DNA of 64,000 nucleotides from an uncultured Bacillota bacterium (GTDB taxonomy: Bacteria; Bacillota_I; Bacilli_A; Culicoidibacterales; ZOR0006). Under the pieces are notes generated by a model. It had not been told where the DNA came from, did no database searches, and worked only from the letters and a program-made list of their open reading frames with translations. The stretch is taken from assembly GCA_945956935.1 (NCBI GenBank), contig CAMFJD010000002.1, positions 1 through 64,000 on the forward strand, written 5' to 3'. The position numbers were made by a program, and so were the translations under genes. How positions within the stretch are numbered: the stretch's first letter is position 1; each line of letters begins with the position of its first letter. Below, piece after piece: positions 37,878 to 40,225 of the stretch.

Positions 37878-38423
37878 ATGGCAGCAACAGTATTAGCACA
37901 AGCAACACAAAAAATGGATAAAGCATTACACCATTTAGAAGAAGAATTAACGACAATTCGTACAGGACGTGCGAATCCAACAGCGTTAAATAAAATAACA
38001 GTTGAGTATTATGGGACACCAACACCATTAAATCAAGTAGCAAATGTAACGGCTCCGGAAGCCCGTATGCTATTAGTCTCACCATATGATCGTTCAATTT
38101 TAGGTGGAATTGAAAAAGCGATTCAAGATGCAAATTTAGGATTCAATCCAACAAATGATGGTTCAGTAATTCGTATCGCAATCCCAGCATTAACAGAGGA
38201 ACGCCGTAAAGAAATGGTGAAAAAAGTAAAGTCAATGGGTGAAACTGCAAAAGTTGGTGTGCGTAATGCTCGTCGTGATGCAAATGATGCATTAAAAAAA
38301 CTTGATATTACTGAAGATGAAGTGAAAGCATATCAAGATGATGTACAAAAGTTAACGGATACATACACTAAAAAAGTAGATGATATTGTTAAAGCAAAAG
38401 AAACAGATGTAATGACAGTCTAA
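37878..38423 (+). CDS. frr: ribosome recycling factor
   Basis: Splits post-termination ribosomes together with EF-G. EELTTIRTGRANPTALNKI, VEYYGTPTPLNQVANV and the late VRNARRDANDALKKL are hallmarks. 181 residues. The ATG at 37878 has AAGGAGG 8 bp upstream; a TTG two codons earlier is less likely. uppS and cdsA, the usual next genes, are missing. The last codons of frr fall inside the first repeat unit of the odd non-coding region that follows. Confidence 0.97.
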   Translation: MAATVLAQATQKMDKALHHLEEELTTIRTGRANPTALNKITVEYYGTPTPLNQVANVTAPEARMLLVSPYDRSILGGIEKAIQDANLGFNPTNDGSVIRIAIPALTEERRKEMVKKVKSMGETAKVGVRNARRDANDALKKLDITEDEVKAYQDDVQKLTDTYTKKVDDIVKAKETDVMTV

Positions 38424-38465
38424 GTGTTTGACACCGGTGCTCAATACTAAGTAATCAAGAGAGCA

Positions 38466-38554
38466 ACAGCTTCCGGTGGCTAAGTGGTAGCTTTGGCGAT
38501 TTTCAAGCGAATGCAAGAAAAAATCACCAAAGCGAACTTAGCGGGGGAAGTTGT
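38466..38554 (+). ncRNA. candidate structured RNA (long nested hairpin)
   Basis: About 29 bp of stem in four helices: 466-474 with 546-554 (9 bp), 479-485 with 536-542 (GCTAAGT/ACTTAGC), 490-496 with 527-533 (GCTTTGG/CCAAAGC) and 498-503 with 520-525 (all +38000). The loop is about 16 nt. Such nesting with internal loops suggests a conserved RNA fold. No T-run follows, so it is not simply a terminator. I match it to no known RNA family. Confidence 0.4.
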
Positions 38555-38570
38555 AGGTGGAGACACGTTA
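38554..38570 (+). repeat. 17-bp direct repeat, copy 1
   Basis: TAGGTGGAGACACGTTA, found again exactly at 38816-38832, immediately after the long hairpin. Confidence 0.85.
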
Positions 38571-38684
38571 CAGTCTAAGTATTCGAAGCCGTTTTTCATC
38601 TTAAAGTATTTAAGGTGGAAAAACATAATGTGATTTAGTCTTCAATTGTTAGAAAAACTCATTCTCACTCAAAAATGAGTTTTG

Positions 38685-38699
38685 TGATAATGATTATTT
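38685..38699. promoter_or_regulatory. Fur-family box in the non-coding region
   Basis: TGATAATGATTATTT fits TGATAATNATTATCA at 12 of 14 informative positions. It contains a GATAAT (-10-like) with TTCTCA 18 bp upstream. It may control a short transcript ending at the terminator at 38805. Confidence 0.4.
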
Positions 38700-38759
38700 T
38701 TCATTCGCAATTGATGCAATCATCGACTGTATTACTCAAAAATAATGGCGACGAAAATA

Positions 38760-38805
38760 AACAAGTGCCTGGATTCAGAGAGAATGAGTTCAGGCACTTG
38801 TTTTT
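38760..38805 (+). terminator. strong terminator in the non-coding region
   Basis: AACAAGTGCCTG and CAGGCACTTGTT form a perfect 12-bp stem around 19 nt, followed by T5. It would end either read-through from frr or a short RNA that starts near 38700. Confidence 0.8.
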
Positions 38806-38815
38806 AGCTAATTAC

Positions 38816-38832
38816 TAGGTGGAGACACGTTA
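38816..38832 (+). repeat. 17-bp direct repeat, copy 2
   Basis: Exact second copy of TAGGTGGAGACACGTTA, 262 bp after the first and 10 bp after the terminator T-run. Confidence 0.85.
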
Positions 38833-39016
38833 AGCGTTGATGGCGGTGTAATCCAAAGGAAATAAGGTATCATCAGTGTGGCTGAAAAATAATCGCGCAT
38901 ATTCACAGGTAGCTGAGATGCCGTCGGTCCTTTCGTTTTTTGAACACTGAGGTACGAAACGCGCTCGACATTAAGTACCTGAATTGAAAGAAAGATAGTT
39001 GGCAGTAAGGCAACAT

Positions 39017-39077
39017 AAAAAACACGACGAAAATCAGGTGGATGAGATACTGCTTGATATTTCAGCGTGTTTTTTTT
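39017..39077 (+). terminator. large terminator-like hairpin
   Basis: The outer stem AAAAAACACG (39017-39026) pairs with its complement at 39066-39075, with inner pairing of GAAAATCA-like segments, and is followed by a long T-run. The loop carries GGTGGATGAGATACTG, a variant of the region's repeat motif. Confidence 0.65.
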
Positions 39078-39583
39078 AGTATTGAAGCACGAATTATGCT
39101 AAAAGCTTAAGCGTTTGAAGCTCTTTAGAAAGAAAAGAAGAAAAGATTCAATTGAATGGTGTACATAAGTAAAGAAACGAATAGTTGCAGTAGTGTAGAA
39201 ATGATATCTGCTCTTTTTGGCTTATGATAGACATTTGAAGGCTGAGATACGTTCAATCTGAGTGCCTAACACCAGTGTTTCGAATCAAGAAAAAGAAATA
39301 GCTCCTCTTGATAGATATGTGATAGAAATTTTAGTTTGTGATTGGTAGAGAATATTGAAATTTCAATTTTGTTGAAGAAGATAGAAGCACATTAAAGTCC
39401 TGAGCGTCTGACAGCGATTCAAAACTTAGGTAAAATAGGACTACAACATTAAATGCATTGATAGCGGTAATACGTTATACGAGAATGGACTCGTGAATTG
39501 AAGCGGTGCCTTTTGTCATATTGTAAACATTTTAAGAAAAATTTCTGATACAATAATGTATGGAAAGAAAAGGGGAAAAATAG

Positions 39584-40225
39584 ATGACACAGTTAGATTT
39601 TATTTATAATCGTAAAAGTATTCGTCAATTCCAAAAACAAGGTGTTCCAAGAACAGGTATTTTAGCAATGATACAAGCAGCAACATATGCACCATCACCG
39701 AAGCATCAACAAAATTGGCATTTTGTTGTGTTACAAAATCGTGAGAAAATACAAGAACTTGCAAGAATCGTTTACGACAGTCATAAAGAAATAGGGCGTT
39801 TGGCAAAGAATGAACAAGATTTTAAACGTCATATGAGTGTGATTAATTACTATACTTCCTTTAAATACGCACCGGTTGTTATACTTGTATATGGCTGTGA
39901 ATATAAAATGATTGAATATAAAATCATGCAAGAAAACAATGCATCGCAAGAAATACTCAATATGCTTATGTCACCACAATCGGCTGCACAAGCGATAGGT
40001 GCAGCTGTCGAAAATTTTTTATTAGCAGCAAGCGAATTAGGATATGGCACATGCTATATGACGGGACCAACACATGCAAAGATTAAAATTGAAGCAGCTA
40101 TTGATTTTGCTAAGCCTGGATATGAACTTATGTCAATGATTTCACTCGGTGTTGCCGCTGATAACACACCTCCACAACCATCTAGGAAACCGCTAGAAAC
40201 AACCGTGACGTTTCTCGATGAATAA
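39584..40225 (+). CDS. nitroreductase family protein
   Basis: FMN-dependent NAD(P)H oxidoreductase fold, 213 residues. FIYNRKSIRQFQ is the FMN-contacting start, AATYAPSPKHQQNWHFVV the usual second motif, and ASELGYGTCYMTGP plus MISLGVAADNTPPQPSRKPL the C-terminal ones. The substrate cannot be told; nitroaromatics, quinones or enones are typical. A GGGG-type ribosome binding site precedes the ATG. It is a single gene behind the repeat-rich region. Confidence 0.9.
   Translation: MTQLDFIYNRKSIRQFQKQGVPRTGILAMIQAATYAPSPKHQQNWHFVVLQNREKIQELARIVYDSHKEIGRLAKNEQDFKRHMSVINYYTSFKYAPVVILVYGCEYKMIEYKIMQENNASQEILNMLMSPQSAAQAIGAAVENFLLAASELGYGTCYMTGPTHAKIKIEAAIDFAKPGYELMSMISLGVAADNTPPQPSRKPLETTVTFLDE

Follow-up and report, generated by a model that had tools for sequence, protein, structure and literature searches.

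The window analysed here, a stretch of 64,000 nucleotides, carries the gene for ribosome recycling factor, frr, at 37878-38423 on the forward strand (NCBIfam TIGR00496, 232 bits against a cut-off of 149), with its TAA stop codon at 38421-38423. Between frr and a nitroreductase-family gene there is a gene-free stretch of 1160 bases and in it, starting 43 bases past the frr stop codon, lies a hairpin of 89 nt which an earlier note on this DNA had placed at 38466-38554; RNAfold returned exactly this span. The four helices and roughly 29 base pairs first counted were borne out as far as the nested helices are concerned, the number of pairs found being slightly higher. The outer helix of the RNAfold structure has 9 bp (ACAGCUUCC/GGAAGUUGU) and is followed by a lone pair, the middle is formed by two helices of 7 bp each (GCUAAGU/ACUUAGC and GCUUUGG/CCAAAGC), and the innermost part is ragged (5+2+2 bp). 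It is clear that pairing goes far beyond chance, as had been claimed: the minimum free energy is -40.3 kcal/mol compared to -20.7 +/- 2.9 for dinucleotide shuffles (z -6.8), a value matched by none of 200 such shuffles, and the reverse strand of the same span gives a z of -7.7. The terminator T-run said to be missing is indeed absent after this hairpin, and a scan of 38300-39650 found no terminator-like site (a GC hairpin with an immediate T tract). Rfam 15 gave no match at the gathering threshold across the 64-kb window, in agreement with the statement that no RNA family could be recognised; with permissive filters, sub-threshold matches were at chance level only.

The hairpin is not, however, the self-contained structure it was taken for. 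Folding it together with its flanks places it as one arm, P3, of a longer three-way junction at 38424-38567 on the forward strand. The closing stem P1, seen both in the fold and by covariation, pairs GUGUUUGACACC (38424-38435) with GGUGGAGACACG (38556-38567) and consists of 5 bp with one bulge, a tandem G-A/G-A and a further 4 bp. The second arm, P2 (38438-38465), is a UGCUC/GAGCA stem with an 18-nt loop containing CUAAGUA, and there is no linker between P2 and P3. The pairing of AATACT with AGTATT that had been suggested for the flanks is wrong, since the first of these belongs to the P2 loop and the second lies at the start of the repeat copy that comes next. Nearly all other copies inspected by hand have a P3 of 71-89 nt, and the P1 strands follow the consensus GTGYT-GA-N4 / N4-GA-RGCAC, which gives an imperfect stem of about 9 bp; viewed as DNA, these strands are terminal inverted repeats as in a miniature inverted-repeat element (MITE).

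A DNA search of this genome and 60 relatives gave weak matches to parts of the element, 11 of them in the single congener searched, Firmicutes bacterium ZOR0006 (frr contig JTLC01000042; Frr 88% identical). When the loci behind these matches were read by eye they proved to contain tandem units with unrelated middles and a common fold; a BLAST match in a distant genome (L041) lay inside other sequence on reading and was judged to be chance. Two covariance models were built, R1 on 14 copies and R2 on 142 hits. With R1, which scored up to 150 candidates per genome, the window's genome yields at least 32 copies and the congener at least 131; the elements are 115-150 nt in size (a full copy is roughly 145), non-coding and dispersed, so that the family is short, non-coding, high-copy and scattered as MITEs are. 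The same model found no convincing copy in the nearest genome of another family, and R2, applied to 395 class genomes and 392 phylum genomes with strict filters and 8 candidates scored per genome, settings under which distant variants could be missed, gave strong matches only in the two genomes of the genus. Seven other genomes of the class had one R2 match each (E 0.0009-0.009), as expected by chance over that many genomes. Among 50,697 phage records (blastn with one copy) and 72,556 plasmid records (blastn with another) there was no match. A search of the literature on the congener and on stop-codon-anchored structured repeats, with subscription journals largely outside its reach, found no description, and the family seems to be a mobile DNA cassette, folding as RNA, of a kind not yet described. 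Many contigs end inside arrays, among them C22, C23, C35, C43 and C45 of this genome (G000) and C21, C29, C44, C81 and C85 of ZOR0006 (G001); copy numbers and array lengths are therefore under-counted in both draft assemblies, and the arrays account for contig breaks in draft genomes of the genus.

The junction described above is the first of about six copies that fill 38424-39395. Element 1 (38424-38571, forward strand; R2 87.9 bits, E 2.5e-21, filters off) begins at the base next to the frr stop codon, is intact, holds the P3 hairpin, and runs from the junction through TTAC to 38571. The last bases of frr including its stop codon, ACAGTCTAA (38415-38423), are copied again past it at 38570-38578 on the same strand, a spacer which, by its sequence and by the spacer statistics given below, resembles a target duplication; the congener's frr array (L032/L098) has ACAGTCTAA as its spacer too. 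Element 2 (38579-38833, forward; R2 21.2 bits) is split at its P2/P3 junction by a reverse-strand element of about 112 nt from the same superfamily (38625-38735; R2 28.2 bits), and its P3 part (38738-38832) shares 82% identity with the element that comes first at the congener's frr. The nested element is 90-92% identical to three congener copies, at L099 (2038-2149, minus strand), L113 (2225-2336, minus) and L119 (1592-1703, plus), which likewise stand reverse-oriented beside or inside arrays. It is thus far more conserved between the species than most copies are, and was possibly mobile recently. The remaining forward-strand copies are element 3 (38834-38967, diverged; 44.6 bits, E 1.3e-10), element 4 (38975-39102, badly decayed and marginal; 14.4 bits, E 0.0035, filters off), element 5 (39111-39255, diverged; 49.6 bits, E 7.2e-12) and element 6 (39262-39395, diverged; 29.7 bits, E 5.9e-7), all scored with R2. 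With copy 1 intact and the others decayed, the array is an old one.

The location of the frr array, directly behind a stop codon, is typical of the family. Arrays hold 1-5 detected units arranged head to tail, and of 65 arrays 6 start at a contig edge. Among the 59 others, 40 start 0-12 nt past the stop codon of a frame that runs on the same strand and has 100 codons or more, and 10 of these follow the stop codon directly; in a survey of 723 frames in contiguous sequence, just 3.6% of intergenic strand-positions fell within that range. Genes upstream of arrays, as identified with NCBIfam, include frr, a manganese pyrophosphatase, acetate kinase (ackA), an RNase J1-like gene, mutS, valS and dnaJ; as the C-terminal part alone was submitted, several of the matches score under the full-length cut-off. 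At L107 (ZOR0006 valS), L128 (ZOR0006 ileS) and L257 (1651-1770, ileS of this genome) the elements reach into the coding 3' end and provide new last codons together with a stop codon, the proteins ending in ...LESLKPIQ (ValS) and ...CNEVLTPVQ (IleS).

The two species differ in the elements that stand at orthologous genes. The genes at L102, L106, L110 and L114 have orthologous empty sites in the window's genome, and frr and the genes at L105 and L108 carry arrays in both species which are made of different elements. A clear case is valS of the congener, where an element lies within the coding end: the native end CGCTTAGAGAGTCTGAAAAAATAA (R-L-E-S-L-K-K-stop) is found behind the element, a copy of its first bases stands in front, and ValS of a relative ends in R-L-E-S-L like the displaced native end. 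More generally, spacers resemble the gene-end flank of their own locus (identity 0.46, compared to 0.38 when shuffled and a maximum of 0.43 in 2000 permutations), repeating it over about 7-16 nt depending on the locus, with no constant length. Since the duplications are not uniform in length, the boundaries of the element are not fixed. Furthermore, several arrays contain identical units, such as copies 1 and 3 at L112, which shows that tandem duplication also shapes the arrays.

Taken with the terminal inverted repeats, these observations lead us to consider, with a probability of about 0.7, that the hairpin is the P3 arm of a single member of a non-autonomous, MITE-like family which is specific to the genus and stands in structured arrays in 3' UTRs. 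Its elements would spread by entering the DNA at gene 3' ends, where a short stretch of local sequence (about 7-16 nt) would be duplicated, in a reaction catalysed by some enzyme that would recognise the folded element ends. The arrays lie where the mRNA of the upstream gene is read through, and so they probably cap mRNA 3' ends and slow 3'-to-5' decay; some copies would help termination, and such effects may make the elements tolerable or even useful to the host. Protection of mRNA from 3' exonucleases, or a tuning of termination, is thus a probable consequence of the arrays, judged by their position and by analogy with known repeats. Among the nearest of these are the bcr1-bcr18 repeats of the Bacillus cereus group, of which bcr1-bcr3 are MITE-like and bcr10 and bcr18 are predicted functional RNAs, and where the presence of bcr3 in a transcript correlates with a longer half-life (3.6 compared to 2.5) (PMC3446304). 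Like the present family, bcr repeats are restricted to one group and intergenic, some having a conserved secondary structure and being transcribed in UTRs (PMC3446304). Compared by description rather than by sequence, the family differs from them in sharing one junction with a G-A/G-A P1 across modules unrelated in sequence, and in its tandem same-strand arrays, its anchoring to stop codons and its array-specific ends.

That the fold itself is maintained is well supported. When 14 copies are aligned with MAFFT, no structure being given, pairing in P1 reaches 98%, both sides have changed in 8 of its 9 pairs, and covariation scores 0.575 compared to 0.249 in shuffles, figures to be read with the caveat that several of the copies were chosen by a pattern requiring P1b complementarity. 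The alignment of the 142 model hits, in which, by RNAalifold, double changes preserve the pairing at 17 of 18 consensus pairs, is less affected by this selection, yet the covariance model itself contains P1. One P1b pair is distributed among these hits as GC38/AU37/CG31/UA20, and the G-A/G-A positions of P1 are conserved at 88-95%. Compensatory changes among homologues, whose lack the earlier note had named as grounds for giving up the structure, are therefore plentiful. Read on the sense strand of the upstream gene, there are 159 G-U pairs against 33 A-C mispairs; the median folding z is -5.75 (n=133 copies), with 96 of the 133 giving a better fold on the sense than on the antisense strand. 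The excess of G-U and the better folding of the sense strand both indicate that the molecule which folds is the sense strand of the gene, as RNA or as single-stranded DNA.

It is possible, although we hold it to be doubtful, that function came first: the elements would then be host regulatory or mRNA-stabilising 3' UTR structures under selection, spread by recombination between arrays and not as a transposon. Covariation and sense-strand bias are both strong and agree with this, as does the presence of arrays behind housekeeping genes (frr, valS, ackA, mutS, dnaJ, and those for the pyrophosphatase and the RNase J-like protein). The ileS element, common to both species at the same place, adds to it: P2-P3 is about 94% identical (some 6 of 106 positions differ) while fourfold-degenerate sites of ileS are 63% identical, which suggests selection on that copy or else gene conversion, in a single case. 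On the other hand, most orthologous genes compared have no element in common, the family is confined to one genus, and the valS and ileS elements of the congener run into the coding end; outside ileS little shows selection for function rather than for mobility. An element at guaA was also considered as evidence of constraint and was dropped, as the copy in the window's genome adjoins no guaA gene. A fourfold-site comparison at frr and a comparison at guaA were likewise set aside, since neither aligned truly homologous reading frames. The element at L079 (G000:C28) and that at L119 (guaA of ZOR0006) are 95% identical and are accompanied by TTGAGTGGGAATAA, which in ZOR0006 ends guaA; L079 looks as if an array had moved with a scrap of the gene end. 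Whichever way the MITE-like family came to be placed, its more than 100 strongly covarying, stop-codon-anchored junctions amount to a natural experiment on bacterial 3' UTR structure.

The outer and inner parts of the elements behave differently. With tandem duplicates left out, similarity of the outer ends is 0.72 within arrays against 0.64 between them, a difference reached in 0 of 300 label shuffles; for the inner modules the values are 0.38 and 0.385, i.e. there is no grouping by array. Near-identical modules are also found at different loci with different self-complementary ends (L097:1974 and L111:1843, 94%), and at L102, L108, L112, L118 and L123, inspected by eye, the 5' part of a further unit comes after the last full one and is itself followed by a plain terminator, so that an array has the look of n copies with a 5' half copy at its end. 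These features would fit a cassette system in which inner modules are exchanged site-specifically between arrays and the local head and tail stay, by a logic like that of integrons or CRISPR. Integron cassettes and their attC sites indeed share with the family head-to-tail units, structured but sequence-variable sites, and conserved ends around a variable interior. The units here, however, have no gene, the arrays accompany dozens of unrelated genes, and it is the gene's RNA sense strand that the pairing pattern follows; among the recombinases listed for both genomes no integron integrase was identified, the two long ones examined having phage-type domains, and ordinary transposition plus gene conversion could yield the same pattern. 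We therefore regard such a system as unlikely.

The array-specific ends also include the bases that flank the element. The 3 bases before it pair fully with the 3 that follow CACG in 98 of 129 copies, where 43 would be expected. The 3' tails of elements are G-UUA, G-UUG and G-UUU; the 3 bases they pair with are often the stop codon, and an element placed right behind TAA has the complementary tail UUA. The tail might thus serve as a guide which, by pairing with the local head, would select the target, or it might be rewritten by the target. That the family should be a new class of RNA-structured mobile cassette, targeting gene 3' ends by pairing, seems to us quite unlikely; if pairing between tail and target did direct insertion, it would be a new RNA- or ssDNA-guided principle of insertion.

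Like intrinsic terminators and hairpin clusters, the elements lie between a stop codon and the downstream gene, and about a third of them carry a T-rich tract in P3 (44 of 138 copies). Of 48 arrays scanned automatically, 23 had a hairpin and T tract no more than 330 bases away, and the plain terminators at the five array ends inspected fit the same picture. The structures downstream of frr could on these grounds be a row of alternative or failed terminators, but this is very improbable: the reported copy has no T-run and the T tract is absent in 94 of 138 copies; P1, P2 and the G-A/G-A motif are not features of terminators; and terminator hairpins would not be expected to covary over more than 100 diverged, arrayed copies. 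The three-way junction architecture, the high relatedness of copies and the lineage-specific insertions likewise set the MITE-like family apart from terminators.

REPs are a further group of high-copy structured repeats, which lie near the 3' end of the gene upstream, in some cases in clusters and in some cases giving the stop codon (PMC3733652). That the elements are REP/REPIN palindromes moved by a RAYT transposase, our first idea, scarcely deserves credence and was rejected, for although REPs too lie within about 20 bp of gene 3' ends, can supply a stop codon (PMC3733652) and, as here, may form arrayed palindromes, the copy-rich congener has no Y1_Tnp family gene and hence no RAYT, the window's genome has a single one of IS200 size (135 aa), and the units are three-way junctions of about 145 nt rather than 20-40-nt stem-loops with a GTAG or CGTC tag. 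The family thus differs from REP, BIME and REPIN in size, in fold and in the lack of a tetranucleotide tag, and it stands in direct tandem arrays with a single orientation per array where a REPIN is an inverted pair. In behaviour it resembles bcr repeats and REPs; on the features tested it is a member of neither.

Candidates for an enzyme that would move the MITE-like family were sought in the genomes, and no copy of the element with a gene of its own came to notice. No RVT_1 match was obtained in four related genomes including both species, although controls matched, and retrotransposition of the retron or group II intron kind was rejected for this reason. The family thereby bears on how a short element can find gene ends precisely without a reverse transcriptase or a RAYT. 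The single Y1 transposase of this genome is of IS200 type and is encoded at G000:C2:103904-104269 on the minus strand. In this survey, which covered reverse transcriptases, Y1 transposases and recombinases, the recombinases of both genomes look Xer-like or Xer-sized, or of phage type; the two long ones examined carry Arm-DNA-bind_4 and phage SAM-like domains. Phage-type integrases of 378 aa at L260 (G001:C75) and L263 (G000:C8) are very similar in the two species, which suggests an integrative element that was recently shared.
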